Origin: a virus | Strand: one strand, 5' to 3' | IMG/VR virus record: IMGVR_UViG_3300042090_000224 | Coordinates: 1 to 20,968 of that record | Length of the DNA: 20,968 bases | In this document: in pieces, positions 1-18,871 of the stretch | Numbering within the stretch: position 1 is the stretch's first letter | Layout of the letters: each line of letters opens with the position of its first letter | Program-made: the position numbers and the translations under genes | Notes under the pieces: generated by a model | Told to the model about the DNA's origin: nothing | The model's database searches: none | Seen by the model: only the letters and a program-made list of their open reading frames with translations

Positions 1-1470
1 ACCGTATGTCGCTCCAATACTCTCGCCACCCCCAACAGAAAGCGTAGACAGGGGCGTTACATTCGTGCCAATGGCAATGCCGAGCTTACCAAACATAATA
101 TTTTGGTTGATGTAGGTACCCCCCATCATGATTTGATTACCGGCTGTAATCACCGCAGACTCGCCTAAAGCAACTGAACCACTATAATCGCCATTTTCCG
201 TTGTAACGGCACCAAGATATGTATTGGCTGTTCCGTGAACGCTGCCGCCTCCACCGCCGCCATAACCAGCCTCATAACCAACCGCGACATTGTAACTTCC
301 ATTTACATCCAACGGCAACGCCCCAACACCAAGCGCCGTCTCAACTGTGCATGTTGTGCACAATACGAGCGCCTGATCGCCAAAACCAGCATTACCATTC
401 GCGCCCGTTGTCATCACATTGCCGGTGCCGACGCCAAACAAATCATCCCCGGATGGGGTTCCGGTTCCCAAGGAAAGCGCTTCACCAAAAAGAGATAAGA
501 ACGTCCCGTTTGTGTTCGCCCCTGTTGTGCTGCCCATAGCCGTAATATCATGCCCGGTCGTCAAATTGGATAGAACCGAATTACCCATGCAGGTTATATC
601 GTGGCCCGTCGTCAACGAGATTAATCCATAAGACGCCACGCAATTATTATCGATCCCTGTAGGATGTGCATTCCATAGATCGCCAACTCCCAGCATCACC
701 AAGCCTATCGCGCCAGTGCCAACACCAAGGGGAATGCCGTTGCCAACAAGCAGATTAGAATCTGTACTCATAATAGAAGAAATATTCGATTGAATAAGCG
801 GTTGCCCTTGCTGATAAATAACCGAACCAGCAAAATTTATGCCGCCATTAACATCGAGCGTTTGAATCGGGGCTGTTGAACCAATACCCACAGAACCATC
901 ACTAAGATAAAACTGGCTCGCCCGGATTTCCACAGGCTCATTGACCGTGTTTGCGTCATTGACAAAATTAAATGTCTGTCCGTTTGATAGGGTAAGCGGT
1001 CCGCTAATCTGCAATACTTCATTTGTACCAGCTCGGACCGATAATTCAGCGTTCGGGGAATTTGTCCCTATTCCGACATATCCCCCATTATAAACAAAAC
1101 CTGTTCCTGTTGTAATTATGCTGCCATTGTAAAAAGCCACACCATTGGGGCTTTGCGTCGCATTGCCGGTGCCGCCGTTGGCGACGGGGAGGATTCCCGC
1201 TGATGTTCCTATAGAGGTAAGGCTTTCATTACCAAGAACGCCGTTATTATTATAAAGAAGGTAAGAGTTCGTGCCGCCGGTGATAGTGGTGGTGCCGATG
1301 GAGACAGAGGAACCCATAGCGCTTCCCGTAACATACATGGGATTGGCGTTACTGATCGGCTTACATGTTGTTACCCCATTTGTCGTAACGTTCTGGCAAA
1401 GCTGCATGGATTGCTGCGCATAGGCCGGAAAGCAGAACAGGACGATAAAAAGAGCGAGAATATTTCTCAT
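1..1470 (-). CDS. Secreted-type tail fibre / adhesin with VGIG and YadA-like repeats (partial, C-terminus beyond window)
   Basis: I translated this frame by hand: it opens at ATG 1470 and stays open for 490 codons to the window edge. Residues 1-18 are a Sec-type signal peptide (short basic start, hydrophobic core, FPAYA before QQ). A segment with Cys25 and Cys36 follows, then a fibre motif (ILPVANGGTGNAT, about 93-105), VGIGTNSP and VGIGSTAP repeats near 132 and 194, a long Gly/Thr/Asn region, and from about 390 YadA-head-like text (NVAVGYEAGYG, SVALGESAVITAG, NQIMMGG). Such architectures often end in an S74 intramolecular chaperone, which would lie outside this window. The start overlaps the stop of the upstream 49-aa gene (ATGA) and has no clear Shine-Dalgarno, so translation is probably coupled. 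Fibre identity is an inference from motifs; export is inferred from the leader and is odd for a virion fibre. Confidence 0.72.
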   Translation of the reverse strand, partial: MRNILALFIVLFCFPAYAQQSMQLCQNVTTNGVTTCKPISNANPMYVTGSAMGSSVSIGTTTITGGTNSYLLYNNNGVLGNESLTSIGTSAGILPVANGGTGNATQSPNGVAFYNGSIITTGTGFVYNGGYVGIGTNSPNAELSVRAGTNEVLQISGPLTLSNGQTFNFVNDANTVNEPVEIRASQFYLSDGSVGIGSTAPIQTLDVNGGINFAGSVIYQQGQPLIQSNISSIMSTDSNLLVGNGIPLGVGTGAIGLVMLGVGDLWNAHPTGIDNNCVASYGLISLTTGHDITCMGNSVLSNLTTGHDITAMGSTTGANTNGTFLSLFGEALSLGTGTPSGDDLFGVGTGNVMTTGANGNAGFGDQALVLCTTCTVETALGVGALPLDVNGSYNVAVGYEAGYGGGGGGSVHGTANTYLGAVTTENGDYSGSVALGESAVITAGNQIMMGGTYINQNIMFGKLGIAIGTNVTPLSTLSVGGGESIGATYG

Positions 1471-1616
1471 GGCTGTGTCGGCAACGGATTTGTTGAACTG
1501 ATAGGTTGGCATGTCGTTATGCCGTTCGTCGTAACCGGAATACACGGCTGAACCGTCACTTGCGCGAACGCAGGAAGCGGAAAAATCAGGATTAGAGCGA
1601 GAATCCGTATGAGCAT
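1467..1616 (-). CDS. 49-residue secreted mini-protein, paralogue of the N-terminus of the next fibre
   Basis: A small frame from ATG 1616 to TGA 1467, preceded by AAAGGA (1623-1628) at good spacing. Residues 1-18 form a signal peptide (MLIRILALILIF..PAFA before Q19). The mature part is about 31 residues with Cys25 and Cys36. It aligns without gaps to residues 1-49 of the following fibre: both have ILAL in the leader, Ala18-Gln19 at the predicted cleavage site, VTTNG(I/V)TTC, then a PIS..NP stretch, with the two cysteines at identical positions. It could be a duplicated leader module left after fibre gene rearrangement, or a real small exported protein. The intact frame, ribosome-binding site and ATGA coupling argue that it is translated. 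Its function is unknown. Confidence 0.62.
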   Translation of the reverse strand: MLIRILALILIFPLPAFAQVTVQPCIPVTTNGITTCQPISSTNPLPTQP

Positions 1617-4740: not shown

Positions 4741-7700
4741 TGCCCCAGATATTGCTGCGGAGAAACGCCGTATTTCTGTTGAAACGCGGGAGCCAACGCA
4801 GGATTTTGTTTGAGCATCTGAATGGCTGCTGCTGGGGGAGTTATAGTAGTTGGTGAGGTCGAGGCTTGCGTTGGCATCAAAGCTGTCTTAGCCGCAGGCG
4901 TCAGATATTTATCAAAATCCTTGCGTCCAGTCGATTGCTCATACTGCTGTTTCAAACCGCCAAGCTGCCCCGTCATAAGCTGCTTGTATGTTTGGATCGC
5001 ACCCTTAAGCTGTTCTGGGCTATTCGCGGCATCAATCACGGATTGCGCCTTATCACGATCTGCGCCTGTGCCGCCAGCACCGATAACAGCCTTGGTGACT
5101 TCATCGCCAACGATCTGCTTGGCGGTATTGAAATTTGTCGGCGCGGGTGATCCGGTTTGAGAGTTCCAAGCATTGCCCACCGCATTGAGCGCCTTTACAT
5201 CACCATTATTGAGCGCATCGGTGAGATGGTCGAGCAAATCAAGGTGATTAACGGCAACATTAAGTGAGCGCATCTGGTCGCCCTGTTTACCCTGATTAAA
5301 CGCCTTCACTGCCGCCGCCGTTTGCTGACTTGCATCTGGATTGTACTGATAAAGCTGCGAAAGCTTCTGTTGCCAATAGGGAGATTTCAACGCGAATCCA
5401 GCGGGAAAGTTTAAACGCCCCTCATCCATAGCCTTAATCTGCGCTGCATTCTCCGGTGAGAGAGTGGCCAGATAAGCATCACCCGTTAAGGGCTGTCCTG
5501 ATTTTGGATCAATTGCAGGCACCATTGATCCGGATGCCCCAGCGATAGGCTGCGTCTCACCCGTCTTTTTATTGTATTTCAAAAATCCACCCATTTGATC
5601 GGGCACAAGCTGCCATTGATCCTGTTGCAACTTCGCCTTTTCCAAACCAAGGGATTGATTCTTCAATTCTTCGGCCTGCGCCAACTCTTTATTCTTCGCA
5701 TCGACTTGAGCCTGTTGATAGGGCGTCATTGATGTTAATTCTTGCTTCTTTAAACCTAACTCACTCTGCTGATAATCTTGCTGTTGCTGCATCTGTTGCT
5801 GCCGCAAATCAGCTTCCGCTTGCGCCTGATTTTCCTTGCCAGCCTGTTGGCGCTGCTCCATAGCGAAATCAAGTCCCTTCATTGCGCCATTGCCGATGTT
5901 CTCCAAAGCATGAGGCGATTTACCGGCCATCATGCCGAATCCTGCGGCAGCGAGCGCTGCCCAAGGCGATGACGTTGCGCCTGTATCCTTCATCGAAGGA
6001 ATGCCAGTGTCGAGTGTCTTGCCTTCGCTGTGTACCTTAACCGTATCGCCGGAGTGATCGACAACCGGCTTCGCGTCCAGTTCGCCTTCTGACTGTGGCG
6101 CAGGTGGTGGCGTATCTGTAACAACTGCCGGTGCCGCAATACCTTTCGCGTCAGGCGGCAGTAAATCGGAATCGCTGACAGCCCCAACGCCCTGAGCTAT
6201 AGCTGCATTACCTACGGGGCTTGGGGATGGCGCTACACCACCTCCACCATCCGTATTACCACCTACGCCGCCGCTTGGCGCATCGCCTGCCGCTACATCC
6301 TGTAAGACCTGCATAGCCCTATCGTCATCATCCGCCGAACCGCCATCGTCAAAATGCGTCCGTCCACCCTGCGCCATAGTCGGAGAAATACCGCCGAATG
6401 AACCGGATTGCGCCACGCCTGTTGTTGGCGGCGCGGAACTGCCGCTGCTCATCCCCATTTTCTTCATCTGCAACGCTTTTTGGATCATGGGATTTTGCGG
6501 TTGCGATACGGCGAGCTGTTGCAGCTTGTCTATCGGCAAGCTGTTGTATTGTGACATCTGCTGTTGCTGCAATGGATTCGCGCCTGCCATCGCCGCTTGC
6601 TGCGGCGTGGTGATCTGTCCGCCCATGTCGTAGTGACCGGCGACGCCACCGCTCTTGCGGTTCGTGCCAAAATACTGATCGAGCGGATCACTATCATCAT
6701 CAGATGATGATGATGATGATGACGAGAAATTGCTTGACGACGCTGGCGCAATCCCATTGGAACTTTGTTTGTTTCCGCTATTCAGAAGTTTCCCGAACTG
6801 CATCCCCTGCATAGCCGTTTGCAAAGGCGATCCGTTTGAATCCGTTTGCGGTCTCGGAGCTTGCGGTAGATTGGCGTGGCCGTTCATCTGTACCGAAGGC
6901 ACCCACGAATTAACAGTTGGTATTTGCGGCAACGTCACGCCACCAATATCGTAATGGCTTCGCGCCACACCGCCTTTGTTAAACATAGAAGCAATCTCGG
7001 CGATCCCGAGAACTGTACCCAAAGGATTGCCGCCAGAGCCGCCGCTTCCGCCACTTCCAGATGAACCGGATTGTGGAAGATTAGCGCGCGCCGTCATCGG
7101 AATTTGCGGTACAAAGCTTACCCCTGCATTAGGAACTGCGCTCGAAACGTTAATAGAGGTATCATCCGGCAACGCGGAAACCGATGGAGAAGCCACGCCG
7201 CCAATGTCGTAACGTCCATGACCATTAATAGCACCGCCTCTTTTGTAATTAGAACCCGGAGGTAAACCTGATGTTGGGGCAACTCCAGAACTGCCAACGC
7301 CGTTTGCCCCTGTTACTCCTGATCCAGATGAAGAATTGAACCCACCCGTTATCCCATAAATACCAAGCCCCCCCAGCCCCAACCCACCCAACTCGCTCAA
7401 CGTACTTGGCCCCGGACTTGTTGTCGTTCCCGTGCCGCCAGCCACGCCGCCAATCCCCGTCTCAATGCCGCCAAGATAATCCGTCGTCTGGAACGGATAG
7501 GCTTGCTGCGCCTCCCATTGCTCATATGGAATATTAAGTTCTTCCTGTGCTTCCTGCTGCTGATTACCACCAGCGATCATCTGCGCATTCGCCTGATTAA
7601 GCGTGTTGTTTTGCGCAGTCGTGCCAAGTTGCGACATTTCCTGACCGCCGCTTAAGTCGCGCCACGCATCACTTGACATGGTGTTGGCTTGTAACTGTTG

Positions 7701-8825: not shown

Positions 8826-9104
8826 TCATCCCTCCGTCGGCAAAGATTCGGGGAAATCCTTCATAGCCTCATGGCAATGATCGTAATTCTTTATATTTTG
8901 ATTGAACCATCTGAAGATAAACGTCAGAATAGCGCAACCGATGCATCCTACCCGCCTATGCTGTTGACGCATTTCGGCAAGACGTTGAGAAATTGTAAAA
9001 TGCGCGTTTCCAGCCGCCGGAATGCCTTTAACGGGGCCCAGAATCGCATTCCCCAATTCATCTATCGCTATCAGAATGGCTATGATCCGGGTTTTTGCGC
9101 TCAT
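8826..9104 (-). CDS. Small conserved phage protein with N-terminal hydrophobic helix
   Basis: 92 aa. ATG 9104 overlaps the upstream TGA (ATGA), so I chose it over a longer in-frame start at 9185 that would run deep into the preceding gene. Residues 7-23 are hydrophobic and contain IDELGNAILG; further on come TISQRL (37-42), CIGC (54-57) with a hydrophobic stretch to about 65, and DHC at 75-77. The order I-D-x-L-G-N-A, T-I-S-x-R, CxxC, DHC resembles a small phage family often found near tail or lysis genes; I recall the family by pattern only and its function is not established. It might be membrane-associated or carry a metal site (Cys54, Cys57, His76, Cys77). Holin is a weaker alternative, as it has one clear helix and many charged residues. 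Confidence 0.55.
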   Translation of the reverse strand: MSAKTRIIAILIAIDELGNAILGPVKGIPAAGNAHFTISQRLAEMRQQHRRVGCIGCAILTFIFRWFNQNIKNYDHCHEAMKDFPESLPTEG

Positions 9105-9646
9105 GGAATAGTAACCGCATTCGAGGGGATAGTCCCAATGCCACCCGCCAAAGCCCATTCCTGTACTGCTGCGATATAAGTACAAATGGCTTCCGCAAAG
9201 GCCTCAAAAACCGTCACATTGGGGAAAATATGCGGCGTATCCGACATGTCAAACCATGCCATCGTCGCACCACCCCCCGGAAATGACCCCTTTAGACCGA
9301 TATAAACAATTGTACCGACAAGCTTTGTTTGTGTCGTTGCATCGCAAGCGTAATTGCCGTTCACGGTTGACGTGCCCGTTGAAGTTATGACGACACCCGC
9401 AGCAATGGCACTTGCTGCTTGCTGCGCAGGTGTTGGAGCAAGAGGAGTCGGCGTCACCGCGATAGGATTGCCGTTACCGTCAGCTTGTATAACTTGCCCG
9501 GAGGATTGAGCGGCAAGTAGCGCATTATAGGTTTCGGTTGTTATTACAACGGCATCAGAAGGCATCGTTGCATTAACAAGGCTGTTGTAAAAACCGTTCG
9601 TGGTTTTCGAGTAGTAAATAATGGCGGCAGGAGGGGATGTTGTCAT
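9101..9646 (-). CDS. Tail fibre assembly-like / DUF4376-type protein
   Basis: 181 aa. The N-terminal part reads like fibre-assembly (Tfa-type) proteins: IIYYSKTTNGFY, then SDAVVITTETYNALLAAQSS and a GNPIAV strand. A Pro/Ala linker (about residues 70-85) leads to a C-terminal DUF4376-like domain (NYACDATTQTKLVGTIVYIG, later MAWFDMSD and EAFAEAICTYIAAVQEW). It lies four bases after the gp53-like fibre gene, the classic place for a fibre chaperone or fibre-tip partner. I chose ATG 9646; a TTG at 9661 adds five residues and overlaps the fibre stop, which is possible but less likely. It probably helps fold, or becomes part of, the neighbouring fibre. Confidence 0.62.
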   Translation of the reverse strand: MTTSPPAAIIYYSKTTNGFYNSLVNATMPSDAVVITTETYNALLAAQSSGQVIQADGNGNPIAVTPTPLAPTPAQQAASAIAAGVVITSTGTSTVNGNYACDATTQTKLVGTIVYIGLKGSFPGGGATMAWFDMSDTPHIFPNVTVFEAFAEAICTYIAAVQEWALAGGIGTIPSNAVTIP

Positions 9647-9650
9647 TGAA

Positions 9651-10967
9651 CTAATTTCCAATCGCTATCCAGTTAAAATTGCATGTGCCGTTTGAGCGAT
9701 TGACGACAGAAAAACCGGAAGTAGACTGCGAAGAAATATACCATCCGTTGATAAAATCCGGACTACTTCCGCCCCAACCGCTCTGAGAGGCTCCTAGAGA
9801 GAAAAAATTATTGGGAAAAGTGACGGGGAAAGTAACATTGGTTGTCAATGAATCTGCGCTTTGAACGGAGCCCCATTGTATTATCAGGCCATCGGTAGTT
9901 CTTGTGTAGCCGTTCGCACCAATGCTGTGACTGCCGAACGAAACGACTCCAGAACTGTTTATGGTTGTCGATTGATTATATCCAAGAGTCATCGTGCCGC
10001 CCGAAGCAGCGGTAATGAAATTCCGATTGTTGGCTGAATCTTGCAGATTAAAATTATTAGAAGAACTCGCGTTAACAAACACAGTCCATGTTGCGGAACC
10101 GTTTTCAGAGAGAGTTATGGCCTGCGACTGTCCGGAAGGCGCATTGATTACGATGCCTGCCTGATTCGATCCTGTGCTTCCGAAATAAGCTTGCGTTGCG
10201 GATGCAGAAACTACATTTAGTGGGTAGGTTAATGTAGCCGTGCCGATACCGACGTTGCCGCTTTGACCTAGATAAGTAGTTTGCGCCGGGCCGAGGGTTA
10301 GATCGCCGCCAGTCGTAGCGGTGAGAAAGTTCTCAGATCCAGCATCATCATACAATACAAAGGTAGAGCCAGTCCATCCAAGCTTATACTTAGTTGTACC
10401 TGCATCTTGAAACACAACCAATGACTGATTGCCACCGGCAGCGTTATTAATTGTTACTACCGAAGAATTAGCCCCCATGCTGCCGAAATACGCCTGACTA
10501 CTCCCTGCTTGAACAACACTTAAATTCCCATCAATTGTCACCGTTCCAGTAAATGTCGGACTCGTCGAGAGCACTCCAACGATAAAAGCGGTGCCCGTAT
10601 TCGTGCTGATGAAAACAAGCGCAGTCTCACCTTGTGGAATTGCAACTCCAGCTCCGCCCGTCGGCATGGCGGTCAGCGTAAACGCACCGGTCGTGGCGTT
10701 GTTAACGACGTAAAATCCCGCGCCAGTAGGCCAAATTACGTCAATGCTTCCGGTCAAAACACCCGTGAAATTGTAATAGAGATTTTCGGCTTGCGCTGCC
10801 GTTAGGGTAACATTGATCCCACCGGCAACCGATAGAGTGAGATTTCCGCCGAGATTGTTATCGAGGATGGAAAAAACATCGTTGTTAAGTTTTTGACCCC
10901 AAGTTCCGACGTCGCCGCCCGTTTGGGCTAACAGCAAACCTCTATTTGGGGTAGATGCGTCGGCCAA
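9651..10967 (-). CDS. Tail fibre with gp53-like C-terminal domain
   Basis: 438 aa, predicted to start at TTG 10967; no ATG lies near, and AAGGGAG (10974-10980) is ideally spaced. Residues 1-145 are the virion-attachment type (NRGLLLAQTGGDVGTWGQKLN, a common podovirus fibre start). Two degenerate tandem repeats follow (about 149-245 and 250-343), each beginning with SQAYFGS or TQAYFGS and ending in a GG(D/T)(L/M)TLG..T strand; VGIGTATL at 239-246 is a fibre-type motif. Residues about 349-438 match the tail fibre gp53-like C-terminal domain: GLIIQWGSVQ, TNVTFPVTFPNNFFS, and the ending CNFNWIAIGN. There is no signal peptide and only one cysteine, unlike the two other fibres in the window. It is the first gene after a strong promoter and probably the main receptor-binding fibre. 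Confidence 0.82.
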   Translation of the reverse strand: MADASTPNRGLLLAQTGGDVGTWGQKLNNDVFSILDNNLGGNLTLSVAGGINVTLTAAQAENLYYNFTGVLTGSIDVIWPTGAGFYVVNNATTGAFTLTAMPTGGAGVAIPQGETALVFISTNTGTAFIVGVLSTSPTFTGTVTIDGNLSVVQAGSSQAYFGSMGANSSVVTINNAAGGNQSLVVFQDAGTTKYKLGWTGSTFVLYDDAGSENFLTATTGGDLTLGPAQTTYLGQSGNVGIGTATLTYPLNVVSASATQAYFGSTGSNQAGIVINAPSGQSQAITLSENGSATWTVFVNASSSNNFNLQDSANNRNFITAASGGTMTLGYNQSTTINSSGVVSFGSHSIGANGYTRTTDGLIIQWGSVQSADSLTTNVTFPVTFPNNFFSLGASQSGWGGSSPDFINGWYISSQSTSGFSVVNRSNGTCNFNWIAIGN

Positions 10968-12373: not shown

Positions 12374-12685
12374 CTAGGTTGCAGGTGTTGAGCTTGTCAA
12401 CACTCCTCCGACAAATGTCATCGACCCATTCGATCCGCCGCCAGTAAGTTTTGCCGTTGTGATGGTTGCGCTGATTCCTGTTCCTGTCGAAAGCACAACT
12501 TTGCCGCTGCCGCTTGCGCCTGTAATCGCCGTGCCGTCAATTTTAGCAATCGTTGGGTTTGGGTAAGTTCCGGTTAAATCGCCACCAGCGGCCATCGTAA
12601 GATTGCCAAGCGTTATGTTGAGTTGCCCGAGCACTTGGCTAATGCTTTGCAGCACCTGAAGAATAGAGGCGACATTTGTATCCAT
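12374..12685 (-). CDS. Short fibre-like structural protein (GGDLTGTYPNPT motif)
   Basis: 103 aa from ATG 12685, which overlaps the stop of the gp10-like gene (TAATG) and has GGAGAA upstream; a longer frame to 12739 would run into that gene, so I rejected it. Residues 1-30 look like an amphipathic, coiled-coil-type helix (VASILQVLQSISQVLGQLN). Then AAGGDLTGTYPNPTIAKIDG, a phage fibre motif, and a C-terminal strand block with GSNGSMTFVGGVL. It resembles a fibre stump: trimerising helix, one fibre repeat and a terminal cap. It may be a minor tail spike attached to the hub encoded just upstream, or a decoration protein. Confidence 0.58.
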   Translation of the reverse strand: MDTNVASILQVLQSISQVLGQLNITLGNLTMAAGGDLTGTYPNPTIAKIDGTAITGASGSGKVVLSTGTGISATITTAKLTGGGSNGSMTFVGGVLTSSTPAT

Positions 12686-14691
12686 TAGCCAATTCTCCCT
12701 GACCGCGTCCCACGATAGCGGATAGCACCAACGCGCCAAAACGTTCCAAGACTATCGCTTTCCACCTTGATCGCCATCTGTCTCGCCCGACACCTGACCG
12801 TGATATATTGCGTTGCCTGTGTTACCGTAAATGGCCCGAAAGTCGATTGCGGCCCTCCCGGATAATTCGTCGTGTAGAGTGTGATTGTAACACTTGGGTT
12901 GCTTCCTGTCATCAAAACATCTGGAACAAGCCAATCGATGAACAAAAAGATAGTGCCGTCGCTGACATCGACATACCCGCTCTCGACGTAAACCCCCGTC
13001 ATGGGTTCCCCATCGGCATCATAACCGACTTCATGCTGTTGAATTATGCCGTCCCCATCGATACCAATGGGCGTCCCGAAAGCGTTTTCATCAATCCAGC
13101 ATGTCCGAATGAGGTTCCCGTAATCCCAAAGGTTTTCCAGAATGTTGAATTTGCCATAAGTATCGATCTCGCCGGTTCCGCCGCTTAGGGAAGGAAAGAA
13201 AAATGCCCATTCATTAAACAGGGAATTACCTGCCATGAATGACTTATCGGCATTCGAGTAATCTATATTATTGAATATGTTATCAAATATAGGACACGGC
13301 AATGGCTGAACCGGTGTCGTTCCGTAAACATAGAAGCCGCTATGAGAAGCCCAAAAGGCATTCCCTCCCAGAAGAACATTTGCTTTCGGCGCAAGCAAGC
13401 CGCAATTCTGGCCAACGGTTGTTATACTGTAGATAAACGGCTGATTGGTGTACTGCATCGACCATAAATCAAGATCAGTCCAGATCAATCCGTATTGCTG
13501 CGCCTGTAGACCGCCGACAATGCGAGAGCCGCGCGATAGTCGATAACTCCCTGCCTGATTTGTAACTGTTGGCGTCCAATCCGTAATATCGCCGTTATCG
13601 CACCACGCCACCAGCAGAGGGTCTTGCACGTCCATAACTGAACTGCCCAGCAAAACAACTTGCGCGGCTGGCATAGACACAAACATGGCTGCGTTGACCG
13701 TGGGGGCGTTATCTACGATCTCCGCAACATTGCCTATGGCAGTCGGTGGCACCCACTGGTAGAGGCTGCCATTGGTCGGAACGGCCACAAGATTCTGTCC
13801 AAAATTATCCAGGAACCAGTTTCTCGCTGGTAAAGTTCCTTCGGACGTTCCTATGCCATACGGGCCTTCCCCGTAACCGCCGCCACCATATCCTGACAAA
13901 ATCGTGTCTGAAACAGGGCCGGAGGATAAGAAATATTGAATCTGAACATTGCCGCCGTTTTCGCTGCCTGTCGTGCTGCTCGTCGCCGAGTCCGCAGCAA
14001 TGAACGTAAAGTTATTTGCATCGATAATGCTGTTAACAAGATACTGTCCTAACAAAGTAATGCCGCCAACGGTCGTGCTGACACTGACATAAAACTTGCC
14101 GTTAACAGCCAAACCATGATTATCAAGCGTTACCTGAACGGTTGTCGATGTGTTGGCGGTGGTGAACAACGGAACTGCGCCGCCATCGGTAATATTCGAA
14201 GTGGCAGGTGATGCCGCTATAATCGTGAAATGCGTTGCATCGACGCTTGTAGTGACCTCATAAACGCCTGACAGGACAATGCCGCCAACTGAAACGGGGA
14301 CAAAGATATTGAGATAATCCCCGGCATCAGGAGAGTAAGTTGAGTCTTTAACCGTCACCACGGCAGAACTGATCGTAGTTGTAAAATCAGGGGAAATATT
14401 TGAAGTTTCTTCAAGCGGCGTGATGTACGAAAGATTTCCTCCCGTAAAAATCATCAGGTTTGAATTGGTGCCGATGGCAAGATAGTTATAGGATTGCAAA
14501 TCGCTGAACGCATGAAGGCCGCGCGCCACGCCGGAAACTGGCGTTGAATCGAGACTGACCCAACCGCCGATTTTTTCCGGCAAACCTGTTCGCCAGCGCA
14601 TAAGGTTTCCGGCTGACCATCCGCCTTCATTCAAGGTTTGCGAGGCAGTTGTGACGATGCCAGGACGTAGAGTAATTTTTTGAAGAGGCAT
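12685..14691 (-). CDS. P22 gp10-like packaged-DNA stabilisation / tail hub protein with inserted paired beta module
   Basis: 668 aa. The N-terminus (ITLRPGIVTTASQTLNEGGW, then NLMRWRTGLPEKIGGW, residues 6-44) is typical of the gp10-like family that plugs the portal and builds the short-tail hub, and LHAFSDLQSYNYLAIGTNSN follows. Residues about 101-254 are an insertion of two related beta repeats, nearly the same as residues 102-255 of the adaptor-like protein at 17687-18871. The rest is beta-rich with Trp motifs (NWFLDNFGQNLVAVP, GLIWTDLDLWSMQY, WASHSGFYVYG, NEWAFFFPS), fitting a propeller-like fold, and a C-terminal domain ends in TFWRVGAIRYRGTR. It starts at ATG 14691 sharing one base with the upstream TAA. 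The function is inferred from family and from its place among head-tail junction genes. Confidence 0.72.
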   Translation of the reverse strand: MPLQKITLRPGIVTTASQTLNEGGWSAGNLMRWRTGLPEKIGGWVSLDSTPVSGVARGLHAFSDLQSYNYLAIGTNSNLMIFTGGNLSYITPLEETSNISPDFTTTISSAVVTVKDSTYSPDAGDYLNIFVPVSVGGIVLSGVYEVTTSVDATHFTIIAASPATSNITDGGAVPLFTTANTSTTVQVTLDNHGLAVNGKFYVSVSTTVGGITLLGQYLVNSIIDANNFTFIAADSATSSTTGSENGGNVQIQYFLSSGPVSDTILSGYGGGGYGEGPYGIGTSEGTLPARNWFLDNFGQNLVAVPTNGSLYQWVPPTAIGNVAEIVDNAPTVNAAMFVSMPAAQVVLLGSSVMDVQDPLLVAWCDNGDITDWTPTVTNQAGSYRLSRGSRIVGGLQAQQYGLIWTDLDLWSMQYTNQPFIYSITTVGQNCGLLAPKANVLLGGNAFWASHSGFYVYGTTPVQPLPCPIFDNIFNNIDYSNADKSFMAGNSLFNEWAFFFPSLSGGTGEIDTYGKFNILENLWDYGNLIRTCWIDENAFGTPIGIDGDGIIQQHEVGYDADGEPMTGVYVESGYVDVSDGTIFLFIDWLVPDVLMTGSNPSVTITLYTTNYPGGPQSTFGPFTVTQATQYITVRCRARQMAIKVESDSLGTFWRVGAIRYRGTRSGRIG
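13930..14391 (-). repeat. Paired beta module, copy in the gp10-like protein
   Basis: Residues about 101-254. Two sub-repeats share V(S/T)..GGI.L...Y.V......D...FT..AA. The copy at 18107-18568 is about half identical by eye, including GGITL and DANNFT blocks. The fold is unknown; it looks like two small Ig- or OB-like beta domains. Confidence 0.7.
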
Positions 14692-14995: not shown

Positions 14996-15751
14996 CTATC
15001 CCCCTTGCGGAGGCGCAAGCGGCGACGGCTGCATAGTGGTTCCCGCCGGCGCTTCCGATTTCTTCCGGGCTTCTTCAACCGCTGCGCTGCCCTTGAGGTT
15101 CTGATATTGTTTCTCCCAATAATCCGCCATGCCTGGCGTCGTGCCGTCCTGCGAAAAGTTTTGCTGATAACCGGCAGCATAAATCATCGATGCCGCCAAG
15201 AATAAATCCGGCAGATAGGTCGAGAGAAATGTTGTGGGGTTCGTTGCCGATAATGGCGTTGGTCTCACGGTGCCGACAAACTCCACCGTGTAAGCTGCGT
15301 CAGGCGCAGGCGCAACGAGCATATTCGTAACGTTGCCAGTGGGGTTTACAGTCGTAGCGTTCAAAAGCGCATAATACTGCGGAATGCTTGGCGTTCCATT
15401 TTCATTTGCCGCGGCACTCCATATAAAATTGACAAAAGATACTGACGTGCGCAGTACCGGATTGCGCATTGCTCCAGGTGCATCAGGATTCGTTTGTGAA
15501 ACAGGGGTAATGAAATTCACATCATTGAGCACAATGACCGTGCTTGGGACGGGAACGTTGCGATTACCGGCCACCGCAAGAGAGGTTGCGGTTGTTTCGG
15601 TCGTGAGAAAGTCTAGTTCGCGGTAGATGCGCTGTTCGCTATAATCAATAATATTTGGTAATATGGCTGTAAGATCAGCAATGCCGGTGACATCATTCAT
15701 CACCAGATTATTTTGAAGTGCCGTTTGAAATGTTGAGTAGGTCAGGGACAT
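14996..15751 (-). CDS. Head-tail adaptor-like protein (SU10-type phage adaptor)
   Basis: 251 aa. The N-terminal helices (YSTFQTALQNNLVMND, then LPNIIDYSEQRIYRELDF) followed by beta-rich text with PQYYAL and YTVEFVGTVRPTPLS, and a helical end (YLPDLFLAASMIYAAGYQQN, DYWEKQYQNL), match the phage adaptor family described from SU10-like podoviruses, which links portal and tail. The last about 30 residues are Pro/Ala/Gln-rich and likely disordered. The start ATG 15751 overlaps the end of the signal-peptide fibre gene by ten bases. Neighbours (gp10-like, second adaptor-like protein) support a role at the connector. Confidence 0.65.
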   Translation of the reverse strand: MSLTYSTFQTALQNNLVMNDVTGIADLTAILPNIIDYSEQRIYRELDFLTTETTATSLAVAGNRNVPVPSTVIVLNDVNFITPVSQTNPDAPGAMRNPVLRTSVSFVNFIWSAAANENGTPSIPQYYALLNATTVNPTGNVTNMLVAPAPDAAYTVEFVGTVRPTPLSATNPTTFLSTYLPDLFLAASMIYAAGYQQNFSQDGTTPGMADYWEKQYQNLKGSAAVEEARKKSEAPAGTTMQPSPLAPPQGG

Positions 15752-17271
15752 GATGATTTCGCATAAAAGTTGCCAGCACTGTCAACACAGACGGTTAATG
15801 CTCCTGCTGTCGTCCCAATCGGTGCCGTCGTTCCAAGGCCTGTCACCGCCAATTTACTGAGAGGCGCGTTCGTGCCTATGCCGACGCTGTTATTGACGAT
15901 AACATTATCGCTGGCATTCACAAGAATGTCGCATCCCGAACCTGCCGTTCCCGAAGATGTGCCATTGCCGGAAATACAGACGGTACCTCCTGACTGTGGA
16001 TTTTGGATTGAGAACTGCTTATAGGCCGTGCCGCCGTTGATTGCCGAGTTCTGGCCGAAATATCCTACTGTCCCGATATTATCATCCCTCACGCGCATAT
16101 AGGAGCCGCCACCGCTTTGCTCATGCCCCAACACAGTTATGACAGAATTTCCAGAAGTGTTCGCCAATCCTATATTTCCCGAACTCGTGAGGTTGCCGGA
16201 AAAATCCACCTGAAGCTGCGATAGCGATCCAACGCTTAACGGTGCTGACGGATTCGATGTGCCTATGCCAACATTCGCGGAGTTAAAAATAACCTGATCC
16301 GTAGCATTGATGAATATATCGCAGCCTGTCGGCCCCCCCGAACCGGACGCTGTGCCATTGCCGGAAATGCAAACGGTGCCTCCTGACTGTGGATTTTGAA
16401 TGTCAAACTGCTCATAAACAGTACCGCCATTGACCACTGAATTTTGTCCTATATTTCCATAGGTGCCATCGGTTTCATCCTTCATCAAAATAATAGACCC
16501 AGTGCCACTTGTATGCTCGCCATCTATCGTCAAAACGGCGTTCCCTGCATTATTGATGACATTCATCAATCCGTTCGTCGTAACGTTTCCTTCGTAATCC
16601 ACATTGAAATTTGAGTAAGTACCGACGCTCAACAGCGATGTGGGATTCGTCGTGCCGATGCCGATATTGCCGGGGTTAGCTGATCCGGTTCCGAGAATAA
16701 TCATGCGATCCGAAAAACTTTCGCTTCCATATGTTCCCGAGACGGTTTTGAAATGCAGATTATTATCGCCGATAATCCCGATCTCCGCGCGCGCATTTCC
16801 GCCCGAACGCATGACGATACTGGCGTCATTATCATCGGCAATCTTGTCCATGACGGCATAGGTGCAGTCGGGTGCGCAATCCGAAACATAGTCCGCTGGA
16901 TAATTAACGGTGCCAAGGCGCGAAATGCGTACTGTCGCATCAAGGCCGACGCCTGTCGCTAATATTGTCGTTCCGATACCAACCGAACCAGCGACAAACA
17001 AATCAGCGCTTGAATCCGTGATGAGACCCGAATTGCCGGTGACTGTTGCGGTTGTTCCCGATGCCGAAAAATATCCGAGTTGGTATTGGGGACTGGCCGT
17101 AACGGTTCCGGTTCCGAACACAGAACCGGAAAGAGCGTAATTCGTCCCAGACCGGGCAATCGGCACCAAATCGCCGGATTGAATTGCCCCACCATTCAGC
17201 ATTTGGCTGATCTTCTCTTGCGCCCAAACCGGCGATGCCAAAAGCAGAAACAGGATAACGAGAAAACGCAT
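15742..17271 (-). CDS. Secreted-type fibre with two 131-residue repeats and paired cysteines
   Basis: 509 aa. Residues 1-17 form a Sec signal peptide (MRFLVILFLLLASPVWA before QE). KISQMLNGGAI..GDLVPIAR (20-40) is a common phage fibre N-terminal motif. Two tandem repeats (about 203-333 and 334-463) each start with (I/V)GIGT(T/S)NP and contain a QNS..NGGT.Y.QF.IQNPQSGGT block and VCISGNGT...GCDI. The tail is a VGIGTNAPLSKLAV block and a small C-terminal cap with a Cys pair (Cys495 and Cys508). Eight cysteines occur in four pairs (132/136, 301/317, 432/447, 495/508), which would suit disulfides in an oxidising compartment. It starts three bases after the zinc-ribbon gene with GGAG upstream. A signal peptide on a fibre placed among connector genes is unexpected; it may be exported or be anchored in another way. 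Confidence 0.7.
   Translation of the reverse strand: MRFLVILFLLLASPVWAQEKISQMLNGGAIQSGDLVPIARSGTNYALSGSVFGTGTVTASPQYQLGYFSASGTTATVTGNSGLITDSSADLFVAGSVGIGTTILATGVGLDATVRISRLGTVNYPADYVSDCAPDCTYAVMDKIADDNDASIVMRSGGNARAEIGIIGDNNLHFKTVSGTYGSESFSDRMIILGTGSANPGNIGIGTTNPTSLLSVGTYSNFNVDYEGNVTTNGLMNVINNAGNAVLTIDGEHTSGTGSIILMKDETDGTYGNIGQNSVVNGGTVYEQFDIQNPQSGGTVCISGNGTASGSGGPTGCDIFINATDQVIFNSANVGIGTSNPSAPLSVGSLSQLQVDFSGNLTSSGNIGLANTSGNSVITVLGHEQSGGGSYMRVRDDNIGTVGYFGQNSAINGGTAYKQFSIQNPQSGGTVCISGNGTSSGTAGSGCDILVNASDNVIVNNSVGIGTNAPLSKLAVTGLGTTAPIGTTAGALTVCVDSAGNFYAKSSCP
15883..16665 (-). repeat. Two tandem 131-residue fibre repeats
   Basis: Unit A is 16273-16665 and unit B 15883-16272. The period is 393 bases; DNA identity is highest around the segment encoding NPQSGGTVCISGNGT (near 15961 and 16354 in plus-strand coordinates). 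This is an in-frame duplication that could expand or contract by recombination. Confidence 0.7.
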
Positions 17272-17273
17272 AT

Positions 17274-17690
17274 CTACTCCAACTCTATCGGCTGGCCGGT
17301 TTCAAGGGCAATGTAACCAGCGCCGCTTTCAAGTTCTATATTTCCGCCCACCTGCGGCGTCGGAGCGAATGGCGCAGGGCCAAAGATAATCTCTTGCGCC
17401 GACAAAGGCGGCGGCGGAGGGCCTTCCTGCGAAGCGTAGAAGCCGGGGCGCGGGTCTTTGATCGGAATTGGATCGGGGGGGACGATGATGGGTTTAAGCT
17501 GAGGTTGCGGCGTATCGAGACAGCGCGGACATTTAAGCAACTTGAGATTCTGAAGATTGCGACCGCGAAAATCATATTGCCATTGTAGATCAGTCCTCAT
17601 CCATTTAAATCCGCAATCATCACAGATTCCGCACGGTTCTGGCGCTGAAGGATCAGTGTAGGCGCGTCCCTGTAAGTTGCCGATGCTCAT
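17274..17690 (-). CDS. Conserved phage zinc-ribbon protein
   Basis: 138 aa. Residues 8-60 hold a conserved phage pattern: GRAYTDPSAPEPCGICDDCG, then DLQWQYDFRGRNLQNLKLL and CPRC at 54-57, followed by LDTPQPQLKPIIVPPDPIPI. Cys23, Cys26, Cys54 and Cys57 would bind one zinc. The C-terminal half is Pro/Gly-rich and ends with two similar strands. Such proteins recur in podovirus structural operons without an assigned function. ATG 17690 overlaps the adaptor-like stop (ATGA). A structural cap or assembly role is possible; a DNA-binding regulator is less likely in this position. Confidence 0.68.
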   Translation of the reverse strand: MSIGNLQGRAYTDPSAPEPCGICDDCGFKWMRTDLQWQYDFRGRNLQNLKLLKCPRCLDTPQPQLKPIIVPPDPIPIKDPRPGFYASQEGPPPPPLSAQEIIFGPAPFAPTPQVGGNIELESGAGYIALETGQPIELE

Positions 17691-18871
17691 TGAAAATACC
17701 CACTGAAATCAGGATCAAGAAAAAGCCCCACGCGCTCACGATCTTCGCTCATTGCGAGAGCTCTCGCCGCATCCGCATCCATCTTCCTTTGTGCTTCCAA
17801 AGGCTGCGCCCATTCTTTCGAGAGGAACCAACTCAAATCCGCCGTCAACGCCTCAAGGAAGCGATACGGGATCGCTGCCGTCTGGCCTCCTTGAGGGTTC
17901 TCTACCTGTATCTGCGCTGACCTGTAGTATAGCAGTTCATAAGGCCCGTTTCCATCCGGCACTTGCCACAAAGTAAGCGTTGGCGACAGCAAGCGGTCGA
18001 ACCACATGATCGTCGGGAAGCCTTGCAGGGTCTTGTCCGGCAAAGCCGAGTAATCGGTGCGTGAAATAGGGTTCATCACGCGGTCAACATATTGCGCGTT
18101 TGTATCTTGGCCGGTAAGCTGCGCCTGTCCGGTATTTTCCGCCAAGGTTGCAACGCTGGATGCTGGATAAGCCGCGTTGATGGTGAAATTATTGGCGTCC
18201 ACAATCGAAGTGATGTTGTAACTCGCGTAAAGTGTGATACCGCCCAAGGTCGTCGCCACTTGCACAACAAAAGGCTGTCCAGCGAGATACCCGTGGTTGT
18301 TGAGCAGGACATTTACGGTGGAGGATTGAGCCTCCGTTGTGAAAACAGGAACTGAACCTGCATTCGGAACGCCTGCCGTGGCCGCGCTTGCCGCCGTAAT
18401 CGTGAAATCATTGCTGTCGAGGACGGAAACGACTTGATAAAATCCATACAGGACGATGCCGCCAATCGAAACCGGAATAATGATATTGATCCAGTTTGAA
18501 ACGGAAAGACCGTTTGACGGCCATGTGATTTTCACGGTGGAGGAGTTTATCGTCGTCGTGATATTCGGCGCGGCATTGTAAGGATCACCCATAGGAAACA
18601 GACGGATATAGGCATCCAGAACCATGATTGTGTCTGCCGGGACGCTGTAGGTCGTTATGCCTTGGACGAGCGGGACGGTTTGGAAGTCTACGGTCCATAA
18701 ATTTACGCCGGCGTTGCTCCATGCAGCCTGCACAAGATTAAGCGCCATACGCGCGCTAACCATATGCTCGTTCGTGATCTTAGCGGAATAAATGCCGATA
18801 CGACGAAACGCCGTCAGAACGATGTCGGCGTTAGTTGGGTTGAATGCTGTCGTTCCGCTAAGATTACTCAC
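17687..18871 (-). CDS. Head-tail adaptor / tail accessory-like protein with inserted paired beta module
   Basis: 394 aa, starting at GTG 18871 with AAGGGA just upstream. Residues 8-60 (FNPTNADIVLTAFRRIGIY, RMALNLVQAAWSNAGVNLWT) form the helical start of phage adaptor or tail accessory proteins, comparable to P22 gp4-type factors. The C-terminal helices (AIPYRFLEALTADLSWFLSK, then KMDADAARALAMSEDRER) return to that fold. Between them, residues 102-255 are a two-repeat beta insertion shared with the gp10-like protein. TLQGFPTIMWFDRLLSP..LTLWQVP (281-305) is a typical conserved stretch of the family. The protein likely joins portal to tail hub; the exact homologue in model phages is uncertain. 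Confidence 0.65.
   Translation of the reverse strand: MSNLSGTTAFNPTNADIVLTAFRRIGIYSAKITNEHMVSARMALNLVQAAWSNAGVNLWTVDFQTVPLVQGITTYSVPADTIMVLDAYIRLFPMGDPYNAAPNITTTINSSTVKITWPSNGLSVSNWINIIIPVSIGGIVLYGFYQVVSVLDSNDFTITAASAATAGVPNAGSVPVFTTEAQSSTVNVLLNNHGYLAGQPFVVQVATTLGGITLYASYNITSIVDANNFTINAAYPASSVATLAENTGQAQLTGQDTNAQYVDRVMNPISRTDYSALPDKTLQGFPTIMWFDRLLSPTLTLWQVPDGNGPYELLYYRSAQIQVENPQGGQTAAIPYRFLEALTADLSWFLSKEWAQPLEAQRKMDADAARALAMSEDRERVGLFLDPDFSGYFQ
18107..18568 (-). repeat. Paired beta module, copy in the adaptor-like protein
   Basis: Residues about 102-255: first sub-repeat with PVSIGGIVLYGFYQV and DSNDFTITAAS, second with TTLGGITLYASYNI and DANNFTINAAY. It matches the module in the gp10-like protein at 13930-14391 in order, length and position. 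Confidence 0.7.

Follow-up and report, generated by a model that had tools for sequence, protein, structure and literature searches.

Tail fibres of tailed phages are taken to be made and attached in the cytoplasm, and the described systems closest to the locus examined here differ from it in separate ways. The canonical fibre family of contractile-tailed phages, phrog_12796 / phrog_1396, found for example in Burkholderia phages Bcep1 and Bcep781 and in Acinetobacter phages, occupies a position behind a gpI-like baseplate gene. Fibres with the endosialidase chaperone (Peptidase_S74) combine GIGT-repeat bodies with a conserved C-terminal end. Export by a leader during infection is documented for T5 Llp and other phage superinfection-exclusion lipoproteins (PMC9586334), which are small and carry a lipobox. 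Coat proteins of filamentous phages, such as M13 pIII, are virion proteins made with a Sec leader, but those virions assemble at the inner membrane, whereas tailed phages assemble in the cytoplasm, so that a Sec-exported fibre would need joining after lysis. Here we describe a gene in a virus record of 20,968 nucleotides (the window, meaning the whole stretch analysed) encoding a fibre-like protein with a Sec-type leader and paired cysteines, and we find proteins of this kind in many unrelated tailed phages, which suggests that some phage fibres are folded outside the cytoplasm. Full-text searches of open-licence papers returned no description of Sec-exported tail fibres, which is weak evidence of absence as subscription journals and bioRxiv as such were not covered.

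A leader-bearing fibre-like gene in a short-tail module

The main genes of the window all run on the minus strand and form part of a short-tail phage module, comprising an SU10-type adaptor at 14996-15751 (PF24175, 6.9e-20), a nozzle/stabilisation protein at 12685-14691 (phrog_3287, 1.2e-62), a leaderless gp53-like tail fibre at 9651-10967 (PF21882, 1.3e-14) and large virion proteins. Relatives found with the nozzle include Roseobacter, Pelagibacter, Sinorhizobium, Ochrobactrum and cyanobacterial phages. The gene of interest, 15742-17271 (minus strand), encodes 509 aa, starts with ATG behind GGAG 2 nt after the stop of a 138-aa protein (17274-17690), and has its TGA inside the adaptor start (ATGTCCCTGA), so it is built into the operon. 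The 138-aa protein carries two CxxC pairs and is zinc-ribbon-like. The protein encoded immediately beyond it, at 17687-18871, shares a repeated beta-barrel-like insertion with the nozzle protein (weak PF12195 in both), and also hits the nozzle of the closest relative, L002, at 34% (numbers with L denote the loci and records compared).

The product of 15742-17271 begins with the leader MRFLVILFLLLASPVWA (residues 1-17, 17221-17271), followed by QEKISQ, with predicted cleavage before Gln18. To quantify this we used a von Heijne-type matrix, on which the leader scores 9.3 with an h-core of 3.81. SignalP was not run; the matrix was checked on five known E. coli leaders and two cytosolic proteins, giving high values for OmpA, DsbA, MalE and LamB and none for GroEL and RecA in the stricter version, which under-scores PhoA. 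No other start of a main window gene matches this leader, apart from MRNILALFIVLFCFPAYA before Q (ATG at 1470, score 8.6) and MLIRILALILIFPLPAFA before Q (1616, score 8.2). The latter starts a 49-aa product (1467-1616, minus strand; AAAGGA upstream of its ATG) that continues QVTVQPC..VTTNGITTC and overlaps by ATGA a second leader-bearing fibre (1-1470, minus strand), which is cut by the contig end and has a weak tail-spike match, phrog_4636. The N-termini of these two products are 52% identical, including a Cys pair.

The mature part of the 509-aa protein has exactly eight cysteines in four close pairs: Cys132/Cys136 (16864-16878), Cys301/Cys317, Cys432/Cys447 and Cys495/Cys508. By internal alignment, the second and third pairs belong to one module of about 130 residues present twice, at 16282-16677 (about residues 199-330) and 15892-16284 (about residues 330-460), while the fourth lies in the last 21 residues, AGALTVCVDSAGNFYAKSSCP, followed by the stop (15745-15807). 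The observation made in a sequence-only reading of this DNA, namely a clean Sec leader and eight cysteines in four close pairs on this protein, a single cysteine in the leaderless gp53-like fibre and two secreted products at 1-1616, is therefore correct. That reading also placed the gene among connector genes, which is true but is not a fixed place: L002 (nozzle 48%, adaptor 55% and zinc-ribbon-like gene 58% identical, the last at 8889-9158, where the adaptor follows at once) has the same order without the gene and no cap match anywhere in its 66.7-kb record, while L003 and L004 carry other, leaderless genes at this site as well as genes similar to the zinc-ribbon-like one. The gene in the window is thus an accessory insertion, and the conserved fibre of the lineage is the leaderless gp53-like one, with a relative in L002 at 19659.

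Whether the window protein itself is a tail fibre rests on limited evidence. No Pfam, PHROG or NCBIfam family covers its body, and we observed only GIGT repeats and 57-60% identity over the last ~50 residues to L181, L145 and L158, so that on its own sequence the question is left undecided, although relatives do match tail-fibre PHROGs. A resemblance of its mature N-terminus (EKISQ..DLVPI) to leaderless fibre heads is visible by eye, but gave no phmmer hit at E < 0.05 and is not used here. Structure prediction was poor (mean pLDDT 40 and 49), with only the leader helix and a hairpin in the cap standing out (block means 63-72), and no fold search was made. Other identities could be rejected: there is no S74 domain by Pfam and the conserved end is the Cys-pair cap; there is no YadA-type barrel by Pfam, as a trimeric autotransporter would have at its C-terminus; and there is no lipobox, the leader ending in SPVWA before Q without a Cys, in a protein that at 509 aa is repeat-built and encoded in a structural operon.

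A C-terminal cap family in which the leader is conserved

Whole-length searches with the protein gave nothing in phages, viral contigs or genomes, including no tblastn hit in 50,697 phage records, and cap queries of 27 and 29 aa found no real hit among the same records. A profile of the 49-aa product gave two weak loci, one of which, phage L143, encodes a protein ending in AGGLFVCVDSTGIFYKKATCP, resembling the end of the window protein. We therefore ran two degenerate DNA patterns for this end, carrying no information about N-termini, over 2.9 million viral contigs, and about 30 loci were found to have C-x-D-x2-G-x2-Y-x-K-x2-C-P followed directly by a stop, as the window protein does. The C, D, G, Y, K, C and P are invariant in 24 aligned sequences, and the cap has no model among the Pfam, NCBIfam and PHROG families searched.

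Lack of conservation of the leader in homologues had been named in advance as an outcome that would count against export, and the opposite was found. All 25 members with intact 5' ends, the window and L158 from an Elusimicrobia genome included, begin with a leader, and 23 of them pass a strict automatic criterion, against 10 of 364 ORFs of related phages; the two others, L158 and L166, have evident leaders that miss the cut-off. In a further member, L149, the leader MRWVNLLLLLLLSGVAHAQSNPGFL is in the DNA just upstream, one frame off (about 5050-5135), a frameshift that could be a sequencing error. By contrast, of 76 viral ORFs with the same GIGT repeats but chosen without the cap, one had a leader by score and three by eye. 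A chance leader-like N-terminus on an ordinary cytoplasmic fibre, which a single-sequence prediction would have allowed, is consequently very unlikely, given that the leader is conserved across bodies with no other similarity and accompanies the cysteine pattern. The mature parts have 1.63 Cys per 100 residues against 0.21 in the leaderless GIGT sample, and 23 of 25 have an even number; after strict clustering by similarity, the remaining non-cap cysteines are even in 12 of 14 (P = 0.006). Even counts are an accepted mark of exported, disulfide-bonded proteins (PMC7678975).

One could also speculate that the hydrophobic N-terminus, which is short and very hydrophobic, is not cleaved but serves as a membrane or virion anchor, or for membrane contact during entry or lysis. 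Cleavage is only predicted, and neither cleavage nor export was measured here. We nevertheless regard this alternative as unlikely, since nearly all members have small-residue -3/-1 sites followed by Q, D or A, since the even, paired cysteines imply that the body itself crosses to an oxidising compartment, and since in a second, canonical fibre family position 1 of the PHROG profile begins exactly behind the predicted cleavage site.

The relatives support the fibre assignment. Members have bodies matching PHROG tail-fibre or tail proteins (L145, L179, L181, L182), a phage tail collar domain (L179) or a pectate-lyase-type helix (L166), and they lie beside baseplate wedge proteins (L146, L151, L175), a tail-tube protein (L169), a nozzle-type protein (L149, L191), terminase and portal (L188) or the major capsid protein (L172), in podo- and myovirus-like phages, many of which carry two or more leader-bearing fibres. 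An origin as a bacterial secreted protein, picked up as cargo without a role in the particle, would fit the accessory position in the window and the existence of one bacterial relative, L158 (3506-4924, Elusimicrobia MAG), which has a leader, a GIGT repeat and the same cap and lies, by our reading of the ORFs, between aspartyl-tRNA-synthetase-like and lipoyl-synthase-like genes, apparently not in a prophage. However, L158 is the only genuine case among nine pattern hits in genome contigs, most of which are due to chance, and about 30 phage members stand against one bacterial member in 84,980 genomes with the stricter pattern, and a profile of the cap found 0 of 399 Pseudomonadota and only that same genome among 150 Elusimicrobiota. 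The family is mainly viral as far as sampled and the bodies are of phage tail-fibre types, which makes the cargo reading improbable.

Leaders in a canonical tail-fibre family and the possible route of assembly

To establish whether the association is independent of the cap, we turned to L022, which showed a canonical tail fibre (phrog_12796, 5e-36) with a leader. A search with it gave 63 loci, and of 53 unique members ten carry a leader immediately in front of the conserved domain, position 1 of the PHROG profile falling on residue 23 of L213 and residue 21 of L229, exactly behind the predicted cleavage site; L213 aligns over profile positions 1-416 of 445. Six of the ten have a Cys pair (NC-AAS ... 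GGC-PPFGQDMN) where all 43 leaderless members have none. On a tree the leader needs two changes, although one origin is not excluded, and the Cys-pair members form a single clade inside the leader-bearing group, so this represents one or two events rather than many, but the leader has been kept through deep divergence. In six of these phage records the leader-bearing copy is the only member of the family. It stands directly behind the gpI-like baseplate gene and is followed in most of them by further leader-bearing fibres, and in the 73.8-kb record G559 we saw no leaderless fibre in the tail operon. In L213 (3989-8454), L217 (3944-6435), L222 (3926-6561) and L229 (3992-7405), nearly all fibre genes behind the baseplate gene bear Sec leaders, two to three in a row, the second ones being Cys-rich and without PHROG match.

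What the sequences show is a leader and its conservation, even and paired cysteines compatible with disulfides, fibre homology of the relatives and a position in virion operons, and we take the leader to be real, under selection and linked to disulfides. That the protein is exported by Sec, cleaved before Gln18 and folded with disulfides in the periplasm is inferred from these, and attachment to particles at lysis is a further and least certain inference. In the explanation we favour, at a probability of roughly one half, signal peptidase would remove residues 1-17, the mature protein would fold in the periplasm, where host thiol oxidases would close four disulfides including the one in the cap, and the finished fibres would meet the particles when the inner membrane opens at lysis and be attached as side fibres. 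The window gene would then be one member of a wider class of leader-bearing fibres in tailed phages. Attachment to particles in vitro is known for P22 tailspikes. Several points speak against this view: no virion proteomics or localisation data exist for any member, the window phage also has a leaderless gp53-like fibre, so that its leader-bearing fibres may not be needed in the virion, and the conserved end is the C-terminus, whereas fibres usually conserve the N-terminal attachment end. The absence of the gene at this site in L002, the single event on the tree behind the link of Cys pair and leader in the second family, and the bacterial, apparently non-prophage relative L158 also count against it. 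The sequence-only reading had proposed that export implies either a periplasmic or surface adhesin made by infected cells or late attachment during lysis, through a possibly undescribed export route; this interpretation is supported in part, in that the inference of export survives while which of the two consequences follows is not shown.

The main alternative is an adhesin that stays with the infected cell, being secreted or displayed on the surface late in infection, where it would bind the receptor used by the phage's own fibre and prevent superinfection or loss of progeny on debris, as T5 Llp, a precedent for phage-encoded exported receptor blockers, does by another fold (PMC9586334). The leader and cysteines, the separate leaderless fibre kept by the window and the several leader-bearing products per phage are all compatible with it. 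On the other hand, the window fibre has no lipobox, Pfam-detectable autotransporter barrel or other anchor, the genes are embedded in structural operons, and in several phages the leader-bearing fibre replaces the canonical one in its operon slot, where a fibre that never joins the particle would leave the phage without it. We therefore prefer late attachment and consider receptor masking possible but less likely, although for the window phage the exported fibres could be either side fibres or receptor-masking adhesins.

A bolder reading, which we hold only tentatively and as somewhat less likely than not, is that several lineages of tailed phages have moved their fibres to the Sec pathway, so that fibres fold and form disulfides in the periplasm while the rest of the particle is built in the cytoplasm and the two halves meet only at lysis. 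A recurrent class of exported, disulfide-rich fibres would mean a second assembly compartment, would make host Sec, signal peptidase and Dsb factors part of virion assembly, and would change how receptor-binding proteins are recognised in metagenomes, where a leader is usually read as evidence against a virion protein.

Leader-bearing proteins in other phages

Among isolates inspected for leaders in their structural region, phages phiM5, OH and KLEP18-1 and Sulfitobacter, Rhizobium and Octadecabacter phages had no convincing leader-bearing fibre, and phiM5 has a fibre at a comparable site that is annotated as detected in its particle. In Acetobacter phage phiAO1, an inducible temperate phage, PhiAO1_380 (L196, 16342-18804) is an 820-aa tail-like protein with a leader (score 6.1) and a tail PHROG match. 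Clusters of small leader-bearing proteins near the structural genes were seen in L018 (MW202675, 1050-3850), L021 (HTVC023P, 1257-1913) and L017 (3599-6397); three of them match phrog_20531, of unknown function, and one in L018 is annotated as nuclease-like and has a leader. Finally, a T7-like phage fragment, L061 (9722-13213), has four consecutive leader-bearing genes behind the tail fibre, the first of which is a GIGT fibre with 10 Cys and tail-fibre PHROG matches but no cap.
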